Assembly: GCF_014174275.1 (NCBI RefSeq)
Contig: NZ_JABEQK010000019.1
Coordinates: 1-41,410 of the forward strand
Origin: Gluconacetobacter takamatsuzukensis
GTDB taxonomy: Bacteria > Pseudomonadota > Alphaproteobacteria > Acetobacterales > Acetobacteraceae
DNA: 41,410 nucleotides
Direction: 5' to 3'
The position numbers were made by a program, and so were the translations under genes. The notes beneath the pieces are model-generated. The model did no database searches. It was given only the letters and a program-made list of their open reading frames with translations, and was not told the origin of the DNA. Position 1 is the first letter of the stretch, and each line of letters starts with the position of its first letter. Below are positions 21,521 to 36,916 of this stretch, in pieces.

Positions 21521-23974
21521 ATGGCGCTCGACACCTATCGCCGGAAGCGCGATTTCACCCGGACCGGCGAACCGGCGGGCGAGAGGGCGCAGGCCGAGGG
21601 ACATCGCTTCGTCGTCCAGAAGCATGACGCCCGGCGGCTGCATTACGATTTTCGGCTGGAACTGGATGGTGTCCTGAAAAGCTGGGCCGTGACCAAGGGC
21701 CCCAGCCTGGTGCCGGGCGAAAAGCGCCTGGCCGTCCATGTCGAGGATCACCCGCTGGATTATGGCGATTTCGAAGGTACGATCCCGCAGGGCCAATATG
21801 GCGGCGGCACGGTCTCCCTATGGGACCGGGGAACGTGGACACCGCTCGAGGATGCCGAGAAAGGGCTGGCCAAAGGCCATCTCGATTTCGAACTGCATGG
21901 CGAAAAGCTCACCGGGCGCTGGCATCTGGTCCGGATGAAAGCCAGGCCGCGTGAAAAGCGCGACAACTGGCTGCTGATCAAGGGCGATGACGACGCGGCC
22001 CGCGACGCCGACGACCCGGATATTCTCGAAGAACAGCCGGATTCCGTCAAAACCGGCCGCACGCTCGCCCAGATCGCCGGCGGCGCACCGTCGATCGAGG
22101 GGGCAAAGGCAGGCAACCTGCCCGCCTTCGTCGCGCCCGCCCTGGCCACCCTGGTCGCCACGCCGCCCTCGGGCCCGCGCTGGATTCACGAAATCAAGTT
22201 CGACGGCTATCGGCTGGAGGCCCGGATCGCGGATGGCGCGGTCAGGCTCCTGACGCGGAGCGGCCTGGACTGGACGGCGAAATTCGGCAGCGCCATCCGC
22301 GATGCGCTGGCGGCGCTGCCGGTCGAAACGGCCCTGATCGACGGCGAACTGGTGGTGGAAATCCGCTCCGGCGCCAGCGATTTTTCGGCATTGCAGACCG
22401 ATCTCAGCGACGGACGGACGGACCGTTTCCTCTTCTACGCCTTCGACCTGCTGTATCTGGACGGCAAGGATCTTCGCGCGTCACCATTGCGCGACCGCAA
22501 GGCGGCGCTCCGCCGCATCCTGCCGGAGACACCCGGCATCCTGCGGCTCAGCGCGGATTTCGCCGATGACGGCGCGCGCGTGCTGGACCATGCCTGCCGC
22601 CTGGGCCTGGAAGGGATCGTCTCCAAACAGGCGGATTCGCCCTATCGCTCCGGCCGGGGCAAGATCTGGGTGAAGGCGAAATGCTCGGCGCGGCAGGAAT
22701 TCGTCATCGGCGGCTACGTGCCCTCGACCACGGGCCGCAGGAGCATCGGCTCGCTGGTGCTGGGCGTGCACGACGCACAGGGTCTTCGCTATGTCGGCCG
22801 CGTCGGGACCGGGTTTTCGGCCCATGTCGCCCGGGATCTGTTCGGCGCGCTGGAAGCCATAGGCACGCCCAAAAGCCCATTCGCGGACCGGCTGTCCGCC
22901 GACGAGGCACGCGCCGTCCACTATGTGCGCCCCGAGCGCGTGGCAGAGGTGGAATTCCGGGCCTGGACGGCCGATGGCCGGCTCCGGCACGCTGCGTTCC
23001 GGGGCATCCGTGACGACAAGCCAGCAGCGGAGATCGTACGCGAAATGCCCGTTCCCGAAACGCCGCCCACCCGATCCGCGCCCGCGCGGAAACGCACCAT
23101 CGCCCTGACCCACCCGGACCGGATCTACTGGCCCGATGCCGGTGTCACCAAGCAGGGGCTGGCCGAGTATTACACCGCCATATGGCCGCATATTGCGCCG
23201 TTCATCGTGGACCGTCCCCTGGCCCTGCTGCGCTGCCCGGAGGGCATTGCCGGCCCGCGTTTCTTCCAGAAGAATGTCTGGAAAGGCATGAACGCCCATA
23301 TCCGCGCGCTGGACGATCCCGCCGGCGATGCGGAGGAGCACCTGATCGGCATCCACGATCTCGACGGCCTGATGGGGCTGGTGCAATCGGCGGCGCTGGA
23401 AATCCACCCCTGGGGCGCCTCCTGCCGCGACTGGGAGAAACCGGACCAGCTGGTCATGGATCTCGACCCCGGCGAGGACGTGGCGTGGGAGAGGGTGATC
23501 GACGCGGCGCGGCAGGTCCGCGCGCGCCTGGAAGCCTCCGGCTTGACCCCCTTCGTCAAGACCTCCGGCGGCAAGGGGCTGCACGTTGTGGCACCCCTGA
23601 AGCCCGAGGCGGATTGGGAAACGGTCAAGAGCTTCTCCAAAACGCTGGCGCAGACGATGGCCGCCGATCGTCCGGACCGCTTTATCGCAACGATCACCAA
23701 GGCGAAGCGGCACGGGAAGATCCTGCTCGACTATCTGCGCAACCAGCGGGGCGCGACTTCCGTGGCCCCTTACTCGACACGGGCACGCCCCGGCGCCCCC
23801 GTCTCGATGCCGCTGGCATGGGACGAACTGGGGGCAATCGTCGGGTCGGCGCAGTTCACGGTGGGCAACGCCATGGCCCGGCTGGCATCGCTCCGCACCG
23901 ACCCGTGGGAAGGATTCCACGCGGCGCGATGTCCGGTTCCTAGCCCTTCGGCGCCGATTTCAGGCTCGCCCTGA
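21521..23974 (+). CDS. ligD: Multidomain ATP-dependent DNA ligase D
   Basis: An 817-residue NHEJ repair enzyme with domain order phosphoesterase-ligase-polymerase. PE domain, about residues 25-185: HDARRLHYDFRLEL, HVEDHPLDYGDFEG and GQYGGG. ATP-dependent ligase, about 205-525: the nucleotidyl-lysine motif EIKFDGYR has Lys226, followed by LIDGELV, EGIVSK and WVKAK. Archaeo-eukaryotic primase-like polymerase, about 540-800: TIALTHPDRIYWPDAGVTK, metal-binding VMDLDPGED and KTSGGKGLHV. All catalytic motifs look intact. The end overlaps by 35 bp the 3' end of the convergent second ku gene, so antisense effects are possible. Partners are the Ku proteins. Confidence 0.95.
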   Translation: MALDTYRRKRDFTRTGEPAGERAQAEGHRFVVQKHDARRLHYDFRLELDGVLKSWAVTKGPSLVPGEKRLAVHVEDHPLDYGDFEGTIPQGQYGGGTVSLWDRGTWTPLEDAEKGLAKGHLDFELHGEKLTGRWHLVRMKARPREKRDNWLLIKGDDDAARDADDPDILEEQPDSVKTGRTLAQIAGGAPSIEGAKAGNLPAFVAPALATLVATPPSGPRWIHEIKFDGYRLEARIADGAVRLLTRSGLDWTAKFGSAIRDALAALPVETALIDGELVVEIRSGASDFSALQTDLSDGRTDRFLFYAFDLLYLDGKDLRASPLRDRKAALRRILPETPGILRLSADFADDGARVLDHACRLGLEGIVSKQADSPYRSGRGKIWVKAKCSARQEFVIGGYVPSTTGRRSIGSLVLGVHDAQGLRYVGRVGTGFSAHVARDLFGALEAIGTPKSPFADRLSADEARAVHYVRPERVAEVEFRAWTADGRLRHAAFRGIRDDKPAAEIVREMPVPETPPTRSAPARKRTIALTHPDRIYWPDAGVTKQGLAEYYTAIWPHIAPFIVDRPLALLRCPEGIAGPRFFQKNVWKGMNAHIRALDDPAGDAEEHLIGIHDLDGLMGLVQSAALEIHPWGASCRDWEKPDQLVMDLDPGEDVAWERVIDAARQVRARLEASGLTPFVKTSGGKGLHVVAPLKPEADWETVKSFSKTLAQTMAADRPDRFIATITKAKRHGKILLDYLRNQRGATSVAPYSTRARPGAPVSMPLAWDELGAIVGSAQFTVGNAMARLASLRTDPWEGFHAARCPVPSPSAPISGSP

Positions 23975-24731
23975 GCGCGTCCATGATGTTCACGACACGA
24001 TCCTCCGCAACCGGTTCGGCCCGGGCCGGCTTCCTGGGCCGCCCACGCTTCTTGGCGGCGATAATGCCCTGTAGCCGCGCCTGCACAGGGTCCTGGATCA
24101 TCTCCGGGTTCCAGGACCGCAGGCGCTCACCGATCACCTTGCCCAACTGCGTCAGGGCCTCCGGCTCGGGCCTCGATGCCTTTTCCGCCGGCAGACATTC
24201 CGCCGGCGGGCGAACCTCCTCGCCATAGCGGAGCGTCCAGACCACGATCCCCTTGCCGCGCGGTTCCAGCAGCACGGCATGTTCCCGCCGATACAGCACC
24301 AGTCGCGCAATGCCGACCGTGCCCGTATGGCGCATGGCATCGCGGATGACGGCAAACGCTTCCGCGCCGACCGCGTCATCCGGCATCAGGTAATGGGGCG
24401 TATCGTACCAGATCCAGCCGATCTCATCCGCATCGACAAAGCGTTCGATCTCAATGGTATGCGTGCTGTCCAGGGCCACGGCATCCAGTTCGTCATCCTC
24501 AAGCAGCACATAGCGGTCGCCCCCGCGCGGATAGGCTCTCACCAGGGCATCGTCATCGACCGGCTTGCCGGTCGCGGCGTCGACATACTGGACGACGACC
24601 CGATGCCCGGTCTTTCGGTTCATCATATGGAAGCGGATGCGCTCCGCCTGTGTCGTGGCCGGCGTCATCGACACGGCACAGGTCACCAGCGAGAGCTTCA
24701 GATATCCCGTCCAGAAAGGTCGCGGCGCCAT
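23940..24731 (-). CDS. Ku protein (NHEJ), second copy
   Basis: A second, divergent Ku of about 263 residues. Family blocks: FWTGYLKLSLVTCAVSMTPAT, FHMMNRKTGHRVVVQYVD, YYxxP-type segment TPHYLMPDDAVGAEAFAVIRDAM, IARLVLYRREHAVLLEPRG, EALTQLGKVI and VVNIMDALRASLK. The ATG at 24731 (MAPRPFW) follows GGAGGA; the upstream ATG at 24749 overlaps that site and is less likely. It faces ligD tail to tail, so it has a separate promoter. Unlike the first Ku it has the AT-hook-like tail KKRGRPRKPARAE before the last conserved block. A heteromeric Ku or condition-specific use is possible. Confidence 0.93.
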   Translation of the reverse strand: MAPRPFWTGYLKLSLVTCAVSMTPATTQAERIRFHMMNRKTGHRVVVQYVDAATGKPVDDDALVRAYPRGGDRYVLLEDDELDAVALDSTHTIEIERFVDADEIGWIWYDTPHYLMPDDAVGAEAFAVIRDAMRHTGTVGIARLVLYRREHAVLLEPRGKGIVVWTLRYGEEVRPPAECLPAEKASRPEPEALTQLGKVIGERLRSWNPEMIQDPVQARLQGIIAAKKRGRPRKPARAEPVAEDRVVNIMDALRASLKSAPKG

Positions 24732-24794
24732 CGGCCGGTCCTCCTCCATTCACTGGTTTCCCCGCGCCCGCCACCCATATCGACAGACGACCCC

Positions 24795-25453: not shown

Positions 25454-25829
25454 GGCTCATGCTCCCGTTCGCAGGAAATGGGCGCGGCCCCATGCCCCAT
25501 GCGGGGGCGCGACCGCGTCCGATAACAAGGCCGGACAGCGGAGAAAGTTCTCCCGATGTGCCGTGCGGGGCAAGGATGTGCGGCAGGGCGCGAGCGCATG
25601 GCATATGCAGGATCATCGCCCCTCTTCGACGCGCCGAAATGGTGAATGAACTGAAAATTCATATATTTTATCAGGAAAAATATTACGAATAGCCAATCAT
25701 GGGTAAACATGATTGCGGAACCTCTCCGCCCACTGTGCGTAGCAGGAGGATGATGTCGGGCGTGGGCGGTCGGTCTCCCGGAACGGCGATCCTGGCGCCC
25801 CGTCAGCAACGGCGGCGAGGAGAGAGATC
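25454..25829. other. Gene-free region upstream of the catalase, with an inverted repeat
   Basis: No coding frame is convincing here. The part at about 25640-25700 is AT-rich and could hold promoters for katE. An 8-bp perfect inverted repeat, CAATCATG (25694-25701) and CATGATTG (25708-25715) around GGTAAA, is a possible operator. The catalase ribosome-binding site is GGAGAGAG at about 25818-25825. Confidence 0.45.
25694..25715. promoter_or_regulatory. Inverted repeat upstream of katE, candidate operator
   Basis: CAATCATG-N6-CATGATTG, perfect 8-bp arms, about 115 bp before the catalase start at the edge of an AT-rich patch. A regulator cannot be named. Confidence 0.4.
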
Positions 25830-27974
25830 ATGACCCTCAAGGGCAGGAAGTCGGGAGACGCGCCGAAAAAGACCCCGGCCGCGCAGGCCGGACCAGGTAG
25901 CGAGGCGCCCCTGGGCGCGGGCGGCGAGACGCACCAGGTGGCGGGCGGCGATGTCGCGACGCTGACGACCGCGCAGGGCGCGCCGGTCGCCGACGACCAG
26001 AACACGCTGCGCTACGGCGCGCGCGGCCCCGCGCTGATGGAGGATTTCCATTTCCGCGAGAAGATCTTCCATTTCGATCATGAACGCATCCCCGAACGCG
26101 TGGTCCATGCGCGCGGATACGGGGCGCATGGCTATTTCGAACTGACCGACAGCCTGGCGGACGTGACGCGCGCGGATATCTTCCAGCGCGTGGGCGAACG
26201 CACGCCGGCCTTCGTGCGCTTCTCGACCGTCGCGGGCTCGAAGGGCTCGTTCGATCTCGCCCGCGACGTGCGCGGCTTCGCGGTCAAGCTCTACACGCAG
26301 GAGGGCAACTGGGACCTGGTTGGCAACAATATTCCGGTCTTCTTCATTCAGGACGCGATCAAGTTTCCGGACATGGTCCATGCGGTAAAGCCCGCACCCG
26401 ACCGCGATTTCCCGCAGGCGCAGTCGGCCCACGACAATTTCTGGGACTTCATCTCGCTGACGCCGGAAAGCCTGCACATGATCATGTGGGTGATGTCCGA
26501 CCGGGCGATTCCGCGCTCCTTCCGCTTCATGGAAGGGTTCGGCGTCCATACATTCCGCCTCCTCGACGCGCAGAACCGCTCGACCTTCGTGAAATTCCAT
26601 TGGAAACCCAAGCTCCGATTGCAATCGGTGGTCTGGAACGAGGCGGTCAAGATCAACGGCGCCGACCCCGATTTCCATCGCCGCGATCTGTGGAACGCCA
26701 TCACCAGCGGCGATTTTCCGGAATGGGAACTGGGCGTGCAGCTTTTCGACGAGGCATTCGCCGAGAATTTCGCCTTCGACGTGCTCGACCCCACCAAGCT
26801 GATTCCCGAAGAGGACCTGCCGGTGCGGATCGTCGGCAGGCTGGTGCTGGACCGCGTGGTCGACAATTTCTTCGCCGAGACCGAGCAGGTGGCCTTCTGC
26901 ACCCAGAACGTGCCGCCGGGGATCGATTTTTCGAACGATCCGCTGCTCCAGGGGCGCAATTTCTCCTATCTCGACACGCAGGTGAAGCGTCTGGGCAGCC
27001 CCAATTTCACCCATATTCCCATCAATGCCCCCAAATGCCCGATGGCCCATTTCCAGCAGGACGGGCACATGGCGATGCGCAATCCGATCGGCCGCGCCAA
27101 TTACGAGCCCAATAGCTGGGGCGCCGCCGGCGGCCCGCGCGAAGACCCGGTGCGCGGCTTCCGCAGCTTCGCGGCAGAGGAAGCCGGCCCCAAAGTCCGC
27201 CTCCGCCCCGAGAGCTTCGCCGACCATTACAGCCAGGCACGGCAATTCGTGATCAGCCAGACGCCCATCGAGCGGAAGCATATCGGCGACGCCATCACCT
27301 TCGAACTGAGCAAGGTCGAACGCCCCGATATCCGCGCCCGCGTCGTCGCGCATCTGCGCCATATCGACGAGGACCTGGCGGGCACCGTCGCCAACGGGCT
27401 GGGCCTGCCCCTGCCCGAACCGGCGAAGGCGGCATGGCCCCCCATCACCGACCTGCCGCCCTCGAATGCGCTCAGCATCGTCAGGAACGGCCCCGACAGC
27501 TTCGCCGGGCGCAAGTTCGGCATCCTGCTGACCGACGGCGCCGATGCGGGCCTGTTCGACGCGCTGGTCACGGCGGCGGAGAAGGAAAAGGCCGTTTACG
27601 AGATCGTCGCGCCGAAGATCGGCGGCGTGACCCTTTCCGACGGCAGGCATGTGGCGGCACAGCAGAAGATCGATGGCGGCCCGTCGGTGCTGTTCGACGC
27701 GGTGGCGGTGATCGCCGCCAAAGACGGCGCGGCACTGCTCGCCGGCGATGCGGCGGCCAAGGATTTCGTCACCGATGCCTTCGCCCACTGCAAATTCATC
27801 GGCTACACGCCGGAGGCGACCATATTGTTCGACAAGGCCGGCCTGGGCGGCGATCTCGACGCCGGTTGCATCGCCCTCAAGAGTGAGGGCGACATCGCAG
27901 CCTTCGTGACGGCATGCCACGCGCTGCGCTTCTGGGATCGCGAAGCGAAGGTCGATCTCGACGCCAAAGCGTGA
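25830..27974 (+). CDS. katE: Large-subunit (clade 2, HPII-type) catalase
   Basis: The 714-residue heme catalase converts hydrogen peroxide to water and oxygen. The catalytic His is in [16 protein letters not shown] (about residue 90), the distal Asn in [11 protein letters not shown], and the heme-ligand Tyr in [12 protein letters not shown] (about residue 378). The N-terminal extension and the extra flavodoxin-like C-terminal domain (about residues 565-714, [21 protein letters not shown]) identify the large-subunit type, about 700-750 residues in E. coli-like enzymes. No signal peptide: cytoplasmic. The stop overlaps a GTG that may start the glycosyltransferase (GTGA), so the following four genes may be co-expressed with it. 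Confidence 0.95.
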
Positions 27975-29101
27975 CGCCCTTGCCCACTGCGACCCTCCCC
28001 GCCATGCGCCCCACTTACGCCATCGCCATCCCGGCGCGGGACGAGGACAGGCGCATCGTCCCGTGCCTCGACGCCTGCCGCGCGGCCATGGCGCGATGGC
28101 CCCAGCCTGGGGTCATCGCCCTTCTGGTCAATAACAGCCGCGACCGCACCGTGGCGCGCGCGCTGGCATGGGCACGGAAAACGGGCGCCCCGCTTCGGCT
28201 GGCGGAACGGCGCTTTCCCGACCGGGCGGCTCATGCCGGCACCGCGCGTCGCGCGGCATTCGATCTCGCGCGCGCCCAACTCGAAACGGGCGGCTATCTG
28301 CTGGCGACCGATGCCGATTCCCGGCCCGACCCGGACTGGGTCCGCGCCTGCCTGGCCCCATTGGAGGCAGGCCGGGCGGCCATGGTGTGCGGCACCATCG
28401 CACTCGATCCAGCGGAATTCGCGCAACTGCCCGCCTGGGTCACGGCCAATGGCGCGGTCGAGGACCATTACCGCCGCACCGCACTGGAACTGACGAGCCT
28501 GCTCGACCCCGACCCCCTCAATCCATGGCCGTTCCACGGCACGATATCGGGGGCCAGTCTCGCGATGTCGGTGGCCGCCCATGACCGGATCGGCGGGGCG
28601 CCGATCGTGCCATATGGCGAAGATCGCGCATTGGTCCGCCGCTTTCTCGACCACGACCTGCCCGTTCTCTACAGCGACGCCGCGCATGTCGTCACCTCCT
28701 GCCGGCTGAAGGGACGGGCACCGGGCGGCATGGCGGACACCATCGCCTCCCGCCTCGCGGGCGGGCCGCATTGGTGCGACGAAACCCTGGAGCCCGCGCG
28801 CCAGACATGGTTCCGGGCGCAGGCGCGCGCGCACCTGCGCAGGGCGTTTCGCGACCATCGGCACCGGGACGAGGCCTTGGCCGAGGCCGGATTGTCCGCC
28901 GACCAGCGCCGGACGATACCGGCCTTCACCGGCTTCGGCGCCTTGTGGGCCTTTGTCGAAACCGCCAGTCTCCGCCTCGCGCGGCGCCGGATGTCGTGGG
29001 ACGAGATGGCGGCCGAACTCCCCCGCCTGGAAGTGTTGCGGGACGAAGCGGCGGCGGCTGCGACGGGCGCGCGGATCAGGTCGTCGGGGGAAATCGCATG
29101 A
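27971..29101 (+). CDS. GT2-family glycosyltransferase
   Basis: The ATG at 28004 gives 365 residues ([18 protein letters not shown]); a GTG at 27971 overlapping the catalase stop would add 11. GT-A fold signs: AIAIPARDE at the start, nucleotide-binding [14 protein letters not shown] with a DxD-type motif (about residues 100-110), and [11 protein letters not shown] and [13 protein letters not shown] as the acceptor/catalytic region (ED pair). No membrane segments, so it acts in the cytoplasm. The stop overlaps the next start (ATGA). In this cluster it probably adds a sugar that the deacetylase and methyltransferase then act on, or builds their acceptor. Donor and acceptor unknown. Confidence 0.8.
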
Positions 29102-30240
29102 ACCATCCGGCCCTGTCCCCCGGGCGCCATCAGGCGGACGGATACGACGCGTTGATGCGCCGGATCGCGCAGCGCGCCGACAGCGCCGAAACCGATCCGG
29201 CGGGCCTGGCGCCGGAGATGGACGCACTCCGCCAGGCCGGCCTGCTGACGGCCTGCCTGCCCACTTCCGAGGGCGGGCAGGGTCTGGGGCTCGGGGCCGA
29301 TACCGCGCGCGTCGCCTTCGACCTGCTGCGGCGGCTGGGTCGCGCCAACCTCTCGGTCGCACGCCTGTTCGAGGGCCATATGAACGCGGTGAAACTGCTG
29401 CATCTGTACGGCACCCCGGGCCTGCGGCAGCATGTCGGGCAGGCGGTCCGGAACGGCGCCCTGCTCGGCGTCTGGGGCGCCGACGGGACGCATCCGCTTC
29501 GCTGCTTCGGGGTCGGCGGCCGCCTGTGGCTGGAGGGCGAAAAGATCTTCGCCTCCGGCCTGGGCCTGGTGCGCCTCGCCGTCGTCACCCTGCGCGCCGA
29601 CGATGCCGATGACGGGCTGTCCCGTCTGGCCCTGGTCGACGTGTCCGACCCCGCGCGCCAGGACCTGTCCTCCTGGAGGGCGTCGGGGATGCGCGCCACG
29701 GCCTCAGGCTGCTTCGCGTTCACCGGGCTGGAACTCGACCCCGGCCATATCGTCGGCCGGCCGGGCGATTACACGCGCGAGCCGTTTTTCGAAGGCGGAA
29801 TCTGGCGCTATTGCGCCGCCCATCTGGGGGGCGCCGAGGCGCTGGTCGATCTGTGGCGCGACGCGCTTGCCGCGCGCGGCCGGCTGGACGACCCGATGCA
29901 ACTCGGGCGCTATGCGCGCGCGGTCGGCCTCTGCCACGCCATGGCCAGCCTGCTGCGGGAGACAGGCCACACTGTCGAGGCCGCGGCGGAAGACCGAGAC
30001 AGCATCGATGCAGCCGTGGCCGGCGCCCTGCTGGCGCGCCAGTTCGTCGAGGAAAGCTGCGTCGAAATCCTGCAACTCGCCGAAAAATCGCTGGGGACCG
30101 CCGCCCATATCAGCGGGACCAGCATCGAGCGCATCCGGCGGGACCTGTCGATGTTCCTGCGCCAGGCGGCGCCCGACGCCAAACTGCTCCAGGCCGGCCG
30201 GCTCCTGGCCGGCGCGGGCGGCGGTGGTCCGCCATGGTGA
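29098..30240 (+). CDS. Acyl-CoA dehydrogenase-like flavoprotein
   Basis: 380 residues with the acyl-CoA dehydrogenase layout: N-terminal helical domain (ALRQAGLLTACLPTSEGGQGLGLG), middle beta domain (GALLGVWGADGTHPLR, GEKIFASGLGLVRLAVV) and C-terminal helical domain (EESCVEILQLAEKSLGTAAHISGTSIERIRRDLSMFLRQ). The C-terminal block is shorter than usual and differs from classic dehydrogenases, so the substrate may be an amine or carrier-bound group rather than a fatty acyl-CoA. It overlaps both neighbours (ATGA on each side), a sign of a fixed operon. Confidence 0.75.
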   Translation: MNHPALSPGRHQADGYDALMRRIAQRADSAETDPAGLAPEMDALRQAGLLTACLPTSEGGQGLGLGADTARVAFDLLRRLGRANLSVARLFEGHMNAVKLLHLYGTPGLRQHVGQAVRNGALLGVWGADGTHPLRCFGVGGRLWLEGEKIFASGLGLVRLAVVTLRADDADDGLSRLALVDVSDPARQDLSSWRASGMRATASGCFAFTGLELDPGHIVGRPGDYTREPFFEGGIWRYCAAHLGGAEALVDLWRDALAARGRLDDPMQLGRYARAVGLCHAMASLLRETGHTVEAAAEDRDSIDAAVAGALLARQFVEESCVEILQLAEKSLGTAAHISGTSIERIRRDLSMFLRQAAPDAKLLQAGRLLAGAGGGGPPW

Positions 30241-30983
30241 CACCCTTTGCCGAGGGCGTCATCGTCCGGGCGGCCGGCCGCGCGCCCTCCATCGCCATCG
30301 CGACGCTGACCGGGCCGGGCAACGTGCTGGTGCTGACGCCGCATCCCGACGATGAATCGCTGGGCTGCGGCCGCGCCATCGCGGCGGCCAGCCACGCGGG
30401 CAGGGAGGTCCTGGTCGTCGCCCTGACCGACGGCCGGCTGTCGCACCCCCACTCGCATCTCTTCCCGGCGGACAGGCTGATCGCGCTCCGGCAGGCGGAA
30501 CTGGTCGCGGCGACGGCGATCCTGACGCGGGGGACCGGCGATACCATCATGCTCGGCTTTCCCGACCAGGGCGCCCCGGAGGCACCGGCCGACCGCGCCG
30601 CCGTGCGCAACCGGCTGCTGCACCTGATCGACGCCCGGAACGTCAGCGCGCTGTGGACGACCTGGGAGAAGGACCCCCATCCCGATCACCGCTGCGCAGC
30701 CGTCATCGCCCGCGAGGTCGTCCGCGCCCGGCCCGCGCTCCGGCTCTGGCGCTTCCCGGTCTGGGGCCGCTTCACCGAGGACGCGCCGGGGCCGGGCGAT
30801 GTCCTCTACCGTTTTGACGGCGCGCCGTTCGCGCCGGAAAAGCGCGCGGCGCTGGACGCCCACCGCTCGCAGATGACGGCGCTGATCCCCGACGATCCCG
30901 ACGGGTTCGTCATGGACGCACGCGCACGACGCCATTTCCTCGACATGCCGGAACTGTTCCTCGGCGATGGCGGACATGTCTGA
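30234..30983 (+). CDS. PIG-L (LmbE)-family deacetylase
   Basis: A 249-residue zinc-dependent N-deacetylase-type protein. The metal/catalytic motif is TPHPDDESLGCG (HPDD, about residue 36), with the third zinc ligand in KDPHPDHRCAA (about residue 146). Relatives remove acetyl groups from GlcNAc-containing molecules (GPI precursors, mycothiol or bacillithiol precursors). ATG at 30234, overlapping the previous stop. The 3' end overlaps the methyltransferase start by 17 nt. Placed between a glycosyltransferase and a NodS-like methyltransferase, it probably exposes an amino group for methylation. Confidence 0.85.
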   Translation: MVTPFAEGVIVRAAGRAPSIAIATLTGPGNVLVLTPHPDDESLGCGRAIAAASHAGREVLVVALTDGRLSHPHSHLFPADRLIALRQAELVAATAILTRGTGDTIMLGFPDQGAPEAPADRAAVRNRLLHLIDARNVSALWTTWEKDPHPDHRCAAVIAREVVRARPALRLWRFPVWGRFTEDAPGPGDVLYRFDGAPFAPEKRAALDAHRSQMTALIPDDPDGFVMDARARRHFLDMPELFLGDGGHV

Positions 30984-31587
30984 GCGCGCCACGCGGTTCG
31001 ACCGGCTCTATACGGGCGATATCGACCCATGGGGCTTCCGAAGCTCGGCGTACGAGAAGGAAAAATACCAGGCAACGATGCTGGCCCTGCCACGCGCGCG
31101 CTATGCGCTGGCGATCGAGGCCGGCTGCTCCATCGGCGAACTGACCCGGCTGCTCTCCTTTCGCTGCGATCGTATCATCGGGATCGACATTTCATCGGTT
31201 GCGCTGGACGAGGCGACGCGGCGGAATGCGGATCGGCCGAACATCGTATTTCGCAGGGGCGAACTGCCCGGCGCGTGGCCTGGCGAAAACGCGGCCGACC
31301 TGCTTGTGCTGTCGGAAGTCCTCTATTTCCTTTCGCCGCAGGAAATTGAAGACCTCGCGGATCGGATCGTGGCGAACTGGTGCCCTGGCGGCCATTGTGT
31401 GCTGGTCAATTATCTCGGCCCCACGGCAGAAGCCCTGCAGGGTAGCGAGGCCGCGAATCTCTTTATCTCCTGCATGAAGGCACGGACCGGCATCCGGCAT
31501 GATGCCGTCGCAACGGCGGAGCACTATCGGCTCGATGTTCTGGAGCGCTGCGCTGTGACCGGTGCGGAACAAGGCATCAATCCATAA
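30967..31587 (+). CDS. NodS-like SAM-dependent methyltransferase
   Basis: This 206-residue class I methyltransferase opens RFDRLYTGDIDPWGFRSSAYEKEKYQATMLALP, the signature N-terminus of the NodS family. The SAM motif AIEAGCSIGELTRLL (about residues 50-64) and IIGIDISSVALDEA follow. NodS of rhizobia N-methylates the deacetylated glucosamine of Nod factors. Here it overlaps the PIG-L deacetylase gene, so deacetylation followed by N-methylation is an attractive reading. ATG at 30967 or 30976. No terminator with a U-run was found downstream. Confidence 0.85.
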   Translation: MADMSERATRFDRLYTGDIDPWGFRSSAYEKEKYQATMLALPRARYALAIEAGCSIGELTRLLSFRCDRIIGIDISSVALDEATRRNADRPNIVFRRGELPGAWPGENAADLLVLSEVLYFLSPQEIEDLADRIVANWCPGGHCVLVNYLGPTAEALQGSEAANLFISCMKARTGIRHDAVATAEHYRLDVLERCAVTGAEQGINP

Positions 31588-31619: not shown

Positions 31620-31648
31620 TTGACAGGAGCCTCCTTCTGTCTGGATAT
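31620..31648 (+). promoter_or_regulatory. Candidate sigma-70 promoter of the GH13 gene
   Basis: A perfect TTGACA at 31620-31625 is followed after 17 bp by GGATAT (31643-31648), or after 18 bp by GATATT. It lies about 70 bp before the glucosidase start in an AT-rich gap. The -35 is ideal, the -10 is weak. Confidence 0.5.
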
Positions 31649-35569: not shown

Positions 35570-35988
35570 CAGGGCTCTCCCGATGCCGGGCGGGGCGGGG
35601 TGAGCGCCTGGGCGGCAACATACCCCGCCGTCACGCTCGCCATGCCCAGCGTGACGGACAGCACGATATTGAGCAGCGCGCGCCCCGGCGCCCCGCCGCG
35701 CAGCAGGTCCAGCGTCTGGAGCGTGAACGAGGAAAAGGTCGTGTATCCGCCGCAGATGCCCACCATGAACATCAGCCGTGCGGTATCGGACACCTGGAAG
35801 CGCGCATTGCCCAGCGTCAGCGTGCCGAAGAACGCGATGGCGAACGAGCCGCTCATGTTGATCAGGATCGTTCCCCACGGAAGGGTCTGGCTGATCCGCG
35901 CGGTCGCCAGCCCGACCCAGTAGCGCATCAGGGTTCCGCAGGCACCGGCAAGGGCGATGCCCAGGGTCGTCACAAGGTTGGAATTCAT
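35569..35988 (-). CDS. crcB: Fluoride channel CrcB/Fluc
   Basis: A 139-residue inner-membrane fluoride exporter that works as a dual-topology dimer. Signature stretches: AGACGTLMRYWVG, PWGTILINMSGSFAIAFFGTL (central Asn) and GICGGYTTFSSFTLQTLDLL with the Phe/Ser/Thr fluoride path. Four hydrophobic segments and length match the family. It overlaps the universal stress gene (ATGA) and the VOC gene. A fluoride riboswitch lies upstream of the operon at about 36917-36985, giving a clear mode of regulation. Confidence 0.95.
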   Translation of the reverse strand: MNSNLVTTLGIALAGACGTLMRYWVGLATARISQTLPWGTILINMSGSFAIAFFGTLTLGNARFQVSDTARLMFMVGICGGYTTFSSFTLQTLDLLRGGAPGRALLNIVLSVTLGMASVTAGYVAAQALTPPRPASGEP

Positions 35989-36833
35989 GCGATAGAGTCT
36001 TCGAAGCCGTGATGACAGGTCAGGATCGGGAGCGTGGCGTGGGCGAACAGGTCGCGCGTCGGCCCGCCGAACAGCCATTCGACGAAGCGCGAATGCGTAT
36101 AGGCGCCCATGATCAGCAGGTCGCCCCCGGCGGTCAGCGCATGGGCGCGGATCTCCTCGCCCATCCGCTCGCGCGGGGCGGTGAAGCGGTCGATCGTGAC
36201 CGGAACGCCGCGCGCGGCCAGCATCCGCGCCCACTCCGGCGACGCATCCTCCGTCTCGTGCTCCGAACCGATCACGAAAGTGACATGCCCGGCCGATTCC
36301 AGAAGCGGCCGGGCCAGGTCCAGCGCCCGGTCGAGCGCGGGCGAGGGCGCCCAGGCGACGATCGGGCGCAGGCCCACGGTGTCGTATGCCTGCAAGGGGG
36401 CGACAAGGACGGGTGCCCCGGCATCGTACAGCGCCCCGGCAAGAGCCTGCCCGACATCGTCCCGGTCATCGGCGCGCGGGCGGCTGACGACCACCAGGCC
36501 GGCCTCCCGGGCCTCATGGGTCACGATCCTGCGGATATCGCCGGCGGTCTCGACCCATCCGGCCCGGGCGGCCAGCGGGTCGCCGGCCGCGTCGCTCCAG
36601 TCGCGGGCGATGTCGTGCAGCTGCTTCGCACGGCCGGCGACCTGCCGGGCGAATGCTTTCCGCCGCGCGGGCGTGGGCATGCCTTCGTCGGGCGCCTGAA
36701 AGGCCGGGTCGGTCATCGGCCGGGGATGCAGCAGCCGGATTTCGCGCGCGTTCAGCCGCCGGGCCATGTCTCCGGCGGCCCGGAGGGTGAACAGGGCCGT
36801 CTCCGGCCGGTCCAGAATGGCGAGTATGCGCAT
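35985..36833 (-). CDS. Tandem universal stress protein (UspA family)
   Basis: A 282-residue protein with two Usp-like halves. The second half ends with the ATP-binding-like pattern LLIMGAYTHSRFVEWLFGGPTRDLFAHATLPILTCH, matching G-2x-G-9x-G(S/T). In the first, MRILAILDRPETALFTLRAAGDMARRL opens the fold. ATG at 36833 is chosen because GGAGGGG lies 5 bp upstream; an ATG at 36884 is in frame but weak. First gene after the fluoride riboswitch, overlapping crcB (ATGA), which links a stress protein to fluoride response. Confidence 0.85.
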   Translation of the reverse strand: MRILAILDRPETALFTLRAAGDMARRLNAREIRLLHPRPMTDPAFQAPDEGMPTPARRKAFARQVAGRAKQLHDIARDWSDAAGDPLAARAGWVETAGDIRRIVTHEAREAGLVVVSRPRADDRDDVGQALAGALYDAGAPVLVAPLQAYDTVGLRPIVAWAPSPALDRALDLARPLLESAGHVTFVIGSEHETEDASPEWARMLAARGVPVTIDRFTAPRERMGEEIRAHALTAGGDLLIMGAYTHSRFVEWLFGGPTRDLFAHATLPILTCHHGFEDSIA

Positions 36834-36916
36834 CGGCGGCCCCTCCGTCGCCGATTCCGGGGCAATCGTGGAACAGGCGCACATGGACGGATTCCTCCCT
36901 TCACGCCCTGTCGGGC

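Follow-up and report, generated by a model that had tools for sequence, protein, structure and literature searches.

In a 41,410-nt stretch of the Gluconacetobacter takamatsuzukensis genome (contig NZ_JABEQK010000019.1, positions 1 to 41,410), which we refer to as the window, four overlapping genes downstream of the catalase gene katE make up a cassette that is real, conserved, and patchily distributed. The genes encode a GT2 glycosyltransferase, a flavoprotein of the acyl-CoA-dehydrogenase fold, a PIG-L/LmbE-family de-N-acetylase, and a NodS-like methyltransferase that uses S-adenosylmethionine (SAM). We tentatively propose, as a reading that is quite possible but falls short of probable, that they constitute a mobile cassette for a de-N-acetylated, N-methylated, and possibly oxygenated amino-sugar conjugate. 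In the window the cassette is probably co-transcribed with katE. The genes concerned are as follows:

25830..27974, + strand: katE, long-form catalase (Pfam PF00199, PF06628, PF18011)
28004..29101, + strand: GT2 glycosyltransferase (Pfam PF00535)
29098..30240, + strand: acyl-CoA-dehydrogenase-fold flavoprotein (weak Pfam PF08028; PF02771 under the cut-off)
30234..30983, + strand: PIG-L/LmbE-family de-N-acetylase (Pfam PF02585)
30967..31587, + strand: NodS-like class I SAM methyltransferase (Pfam PF05401)

All four cassette open reading frames (ORFs) lie on the + strand where the first-pass annotation of this DNA had placed them, and neighbors overlap by 4 nt (GT2/flavoprotein, ATGA), 7 nt (flavoprotein/PIG-L, ATGGTGA), and 17 nt (PIG-L/methyltransferase); an in-frame ATG at 30976 would give a shorter methyltransferase. 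The annotation had also suggested that the first gene may overlap katE. In our reading of the sequence the called GT2 ATG starts 29 nt after the katE stop, and since the GT2 frame stays open upstream to 27914, within katE, an overlap is possible, if unproven.

A recurring, patchily distributed gene set

We compiled 94 loci: 80 came from a search with the flavoprotein, 13 lie on plasmids and were picked from PIG-L matches, and the last is the window itself. A flavoprotein profile hit 507 places in genome_contigs (one genome per species, a single sequence pattern), and the 80 named loci are those most similar to the window; since they were picked by that similarity, the window lineage is over-represented, and the species among the 80 are related. 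With distances measured on the longest ORF, and with contig-edge or split cases (L069, L071, L079, L089, and L093) counted as found, all 94 loci had a methyltransferase no farther than 6 kb from the flavoprotein, 90 had GT2 at that range (all but L039, L071, L093, and L100), and 89 had PIG-L. The GT2 gene varies in place, lying upstream of the others or else downstream, there on either strand, so that the flavoprotein, PIG-L, and methyltransferase genes are the steadier part of the cassette. Two one-ORF fusions, both confirmed by Pfam, join PIG-L to the methyltransferase in Advenella (L048) and GT2 to the flavoprotein in Methylobacterium aquaticum (L038). The genomes of all five loci lacking PIG-L (L088, L095, L098, L100, and L118; Methylobacterium/Methylorubrum) hold an unlinked PIG-L gene scoring 267–279 bits. 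At L196 and L197 the unlinked PIG-L adjoins a second cassette-type methyltransferase, and genome G195 also has a PIG-L copy elsewhere. At L196 and L205, two unannotated ORFs that neighbor unlinked PIG-L genes were considered as diverged flavoproteins; they were not recognizable as such and may be artifacts of gene calling.

A separate sample of 150 Acetobacteraceae genomes was scored with thresholds chosen after the scores had been seen (flavoprotein at least 160 bits, methyltransferase at least 140, PIG-L at least 150). The flavoprotein was present in 44 and the methyltransferase in 45, with both in 43 and either in 46; PIG-L was present in 52 and all three together in 41. Fisher tests gave p values of ~6e-34, 5e-23, and 4e-26 for the three gene pairs, uncorrected for relatedness. 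The clustering of the gene set in the 94 loci and across the 150 genomes indicates that the association is not chance and that the four families do co-occur elsewhere; taken with the fusions and the unlinked PIG-L copies, it supports the four genes being one functional unit.

Among the best 80 of the 507 places, the closest named relatives of the window flavoprotein are from Gluconacetobacter species (72–79% identity). We conclude that the cassette is patchily distributed from the flavoprotein matching at E 1e-40 or better in 17 of 398 Pseudomonadota genomes, the window's own included, and from PIG-L exceeding 200 bits in only 2 of 190 genomes from that class, one of them being the window's own. 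Plasmids of several genera carry the cassette or its core, which is also found in Deinococcus, Kitasatospora, Nostoc, Acinetobacter, and Hymenobacter. A locus from the same genus as the window (L259, G230:C10:72700-89700) has the cassette with GT2 on the opposite strand, no katE beside it, and none of the stress genes (named below) that were sought there. This different arrangement within one genus fits horizontal exchange, and we infer that the cassette is horizontally mobile. One pattern scan of viral contigs found no relatives.

The four enzymes

Support for the enzyme classes comes from conserved residues, profile matches, and predicted structures. In GT2, D103 and D105 (DxD) are present in 46 of 46 rows, and the predicted model has a predicted local distance difference test (pLDDT) value of 95. 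The PIG-L protein scores 80.2 bits against PF02585 (cut-off 28.2), which places it in that family, and P-H-x-D-D-E and D-x-H-x-D-H, whose residues we take to be the zinc site of PIG-L, are invariant in 12 of 12 rows. Its profile best matches diacetylchitobiose deacetylases and their relatives among solved structures, and the deacetylase assignment of the first-pass annotation thus holds. Diacetylchitobiose deacetylase, BshB, and MshB share with it the PIG-L/LmbE family and the zinc-site residues; it differs from BshB, MshB, and Mca in scoring under their cut-offs and in having different partner genes. Three unlinked PIG-L relatives (L199, L201, and L202, the loci whose neighbors were scanned; L200, L203, and L204 were not) adjoin GT2, two of them with a WecG-type gene or polysaccharide flippase; this suggests that the substrates belong to the N-acetylhexosamine glycans.

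For the flavoprotein, the annotation's acyl-CoA-dehydrogenase reading gives way. The Pfam acyl-CoA-dehydrogenase domains are weak (PF08028 24.5 bits, cut-off 22.7; PF02771 22.7 bits, under its cut-off of 22.9), and the glutamate is lost from position 356, the C-terminal Glu place of dehydrogenases, which is A in 42, P in 10, G in 2, and T in 1 of 55 rows. Position 235, which aligns with the second known Glu site, is W in 53 of 55; we take both positions to be the dehydrogenase Glu sites. In a Foldseek search with the predicted model (pLDDT 92), ranks 1–34 are flavin monooxygenases, including TdsC, DszC, MAB_4123, and MsuC and the nitrososynthases KijD3, 3mxl, and DnmZ, the exception being rank 8, a putative acyl-CoA dehydrogenase by title; dehydrogenases otherwise appear from rank 35. 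DszC, TdsC, MsuC, and the three nitrososynthases have the same fold as the flavoprotein (TMq about 0.75–0.82) and an SG motif in a common stretch, but only 17–21% identity to it. In MsuC/DszC-type monooxygenases a histidine of the C-terminal region has a catalytic role; this conserved histidine of the DszC type is missing here, and the residue aligned with the His of MsuC is Gln355, invariant in 55 of 55. Since the changed Glu place and the Gln for His both hold in all 55 rows, the flavoprotein represents a distinct subfamily, and its predicted fold suggests that it is probably a flavin-dependent monooxygenase and no dehydrogenase.

Two relatives of the flavoprotein may be recorded here. In Deinococcus radiophilus (L040:3722-5971) it has a long N-terminal extension that matches no Pfam family and looks glycoside-hydrolase-like by eye. 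A distant relative in Gloeothece (L160:27882-29770) has a divergent neighbor annotated as an NADPH-dependent FMN reductase, the type of partner that a flavin monooxygenase would need.

The methyltransferase had been likened to NodS, and this identity does not stand: it scores 57.9 bits against the NCBIfam NodS equivalog (cut-off 300). Its profile is nearest to structure 4isc, its best solved relative, listed merely as "Methyltransferase" without a function, and next to NodS. A quick unrooted tree, built without bootstrap after removal of one short Gloeothece row, separates four rhizobial NodS and two trifunctional proteins from 96 cassette proteins by a branch with an SH-aLRT value of 95. The trifunctional polypeptides, from Rhizobium leguminosarum and Gloeothece (L159:4378-7380 and L160:12952-16428), carry the RefSeq name glycosyltransferase/class I SAM-dependent methyltransferase/polysaccharide deacetylase, and so combine the same three activities in one chain; their deacetylase is named a polysaccharide deacetylase, not PIG-L, and in the tree their methyltransferase falls with NodS and apart from the cassette, so they may stand closer to where Nod chemistry began.

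The katE neighborhood

Using tblastn we found katE in 39 of the 94 loci. In 19 of them it precedes the cassette on its strand, in 14 of these no more than about 60 nt from the first core ORF, and in the others it is downstream, inverted, or overlapping; among window-like loci it thus adjoins the cassette in several genera and orientations. Counting loci with at least one of KatE, Mn-catalase, LigD, Ku, DUF892, TreZ, and OtsA, we found stress genes at 54 of the 80 named loci and 5 of the 13 plasmid loci. Among 20 other Acetobacteraceae loci, chosen by hand and chiefly near the top of a list of 47 matching genomes (two loci of 12 kb, the rest of 17 kb), the count was 1, vs. 2 of 40 control loci, and katE was found beside none of the 20. 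The controls were placed at round positions, 39 in six cassette-bearing genomes and 1 in G330, which has no strong flavoprotein; all being Acetobacteraceae, they control for that family alone. The stress link therefore survives rearrangement among window-like loci and is limited to some lineages, so that the oxidative-stress connection through catalase which the annotation put forward as possible stands for those lineages and not for the cassette as a whole.

Further features of the window bear on this neighborhood:

25717..25741, + strand: GGAAC-N16-CGTA block, candidate general-stress (EcfG-type) promoter, conserved upstream of katE
31622..31641, + strand: weak stem-loop 3' of the methyltransferase, possible operon end (terminator-like scan)
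21521..23974, + strand: LigD, context outside the cassette (PF21686, PF13298, PF04679, PF01068)
23940..24749, - strand: Ku, context outside the cassette (PF02735)

The terminator-like scan listed no site between katE and GT2, and its 3 sites in the region are not above shuffles (mean 3.5); katE is probably the first gene of the transcription unit. The GGAAC-N16-CGTA block, which resembles the EcfG promoter consensus, is conserved in the window and L044–L046 (three Gluconacetobacter species) and is also present in L047. Given divergence further upstream and conservation downstream to the katE start, the block is the upstream edge of a conserved leader. A loose stress-promoter pattern lies 5' of the first core gene in 13 of 94 loci (~3.6 expected), the window not being among the 13, and is a hint only. 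The window genome (3.78 Mb) has two PhyR_sigma2 matches above the cut-off and a NepR-like ORF just below it; no GGAAC-type site was found in the interval separating the two phyR/sigma-like ORFs. Of the 80 named loci (L044–L123), 25 have a Crp-like helix-turn-helix regulator near the cassette and 10 have a YetF/DUF421 protein there.

LigD and Ku are convergent with a slight overlap (23940-23974), ~1 kb upstream of katE, and a universal-stress-protein (Usp-family) match lies at 35985-36884 (30.8 bits), so that with LigD, Ku, katE, and this match the window looks like a stress island; a GH13 enzyme is also encoded in it. The main text of a desiccation paper (PMC13130816) makes no mention of a deacetylase, glycosyltransferase, or methyltransferase.

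Proposed pathway and competing readings

In the pathway that we propose, GT2 would move an N-acetylhexosamine onto an acceptor that is either small or oligomeric. The acetyl group would then be taken off by the zinc PIG-L enzyme, and the NodS-like enzyme would put a methyl group on the freed amine. The flavoprotein, acting as a flavin monooxygenase, might oxygenate the resulting molecule, perhaps on nitrogen. In the lineage of the window, katE precedes the cassette; the five genes probably share one transcript controlled by the general stress response, in which case the conjugate would serve stress survival. The first-pass annotation had suggested a methylated amino-sugar pathway: its functional unit and its deacetylase are upheld, the NodS and dehydrogenase identities are not, and the product still has the standing of a proposal.

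Several observations weigh against this pathway. The structural matches of the GT2 model are generic GT-A folds throughout (TMq below 0.5) and indicate neither donor nor acceptor. Genomes G232 and G311 have the flavoprotein and methyltransferase and no cassette-type PIG-L in the genome, and 11 of the 150 Acetobacteraceae genomes have PIG-L without a strong flavoprotein. The Gln355 substitution and a sequence profile that also matches true dehydrogenases well tell against a monooxygenase, as does the finding of no flavin reductase among the 17 window proteins scanned. On the stress side, there is the low count at the other Acetobacteraceae loci, and the promoter pattern is not enriched genome-wide (84 vs. 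78 for a reversed control).

Instead of a small conjugate, the cassette may modify sugars of an exopolysaccharide or cell-surface polymer, which we consider unlikely, though deserving of real weight. In Brevundimonas (L119:4695-10223), GT4, GT2, and GT28-like genes stand upstream of the cassette and apparently form one operon with it, genes related to this extension recur in sphingomonad loci, and the unlinked PIG-L relatives at L199, L201, and L202 sit with glycan genes; among the 17 window proteins scanned, however, there is neither a flippase nor a polymerase nor another glycosyltransferase. Slightly less likely again is a flavoprotein that is a true desaturase of a carrier- or glycan-bound acyl chain, with a glycolipid-like conjugate as the cassette product. 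Its Pfam domains, its adjoining glycosyltransferase gene, and a sequence profile that matches numerous dehydrogenases of the acyl-CoA and acyl-ACP kinds, prolyl-ACP dehydrogenase among them, fit a desaturase, but both Glu sites and the order of the structural matches argue against one.

Two known pathways share parts with the cassette and are much harder to reconcile with it. A low-molecular-weight thiol pathway of the bacillithiol or mycothiol type would suit the adjacent catalase and the weak PIG-L matches to BshB2, BshB1, and MshB models; those matches are nevertheless far below the curated NCBIfam cut-offs (53.6 bits against 195.25 for BshB2, and likewise 44.7 against 182.5 and 23.7 against 224.35), the four genes include no thiol-adding ligase, and the methyltransferase and flavoprotein are left unexplained, so that we regard this pathway as very improbable. 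We give marginally less credence still to a Nod-factor-type lipo-chitooligosaccharide pathway or degenerate nod cluster. The same three enzyme roles are present, and NodC, NodB, and NodS are likewise encoded together (nod layout in L164), but the cassette has PIG-L in place of NodB, an extra flavoprotein, and a methyltransferase on another branch, which largely refutes the idea for that enzyme; NodA (PF02474) had no match in the window genome, though control genomes gave none either.

A bolder form of the amino-sugar conjugate, which we think improbable, is a hitherto undescribed stress metabolite or glycan decoration carrying a de-N-acetylated, N-methylated, and N-oxygenated amino sugar (of hydroxylamine, nitrone, or nitroso type). 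The cassette that makes it would have been transferred widely and would act together with stress genes such as those for catalase and DNA-end-joining. If this were true, the N-oxygenated group could itself scavenge radicals. A search of open-licence full-text literature, matched by word rather than meaning, found no description of the cassette, and the 507 flavoprotein places and the spread across distant genera point to an amino-sugar product not assigned in the literature searched. The combination of a glycosyltransferase, an unrelated deacetylase, and a NodS-like enzyme bears on how Nod-factor chemistry was assembled, and if the link with katE is functional, the cassette would add to bacterial stress survival an arm that works through a small molecule or glycan.

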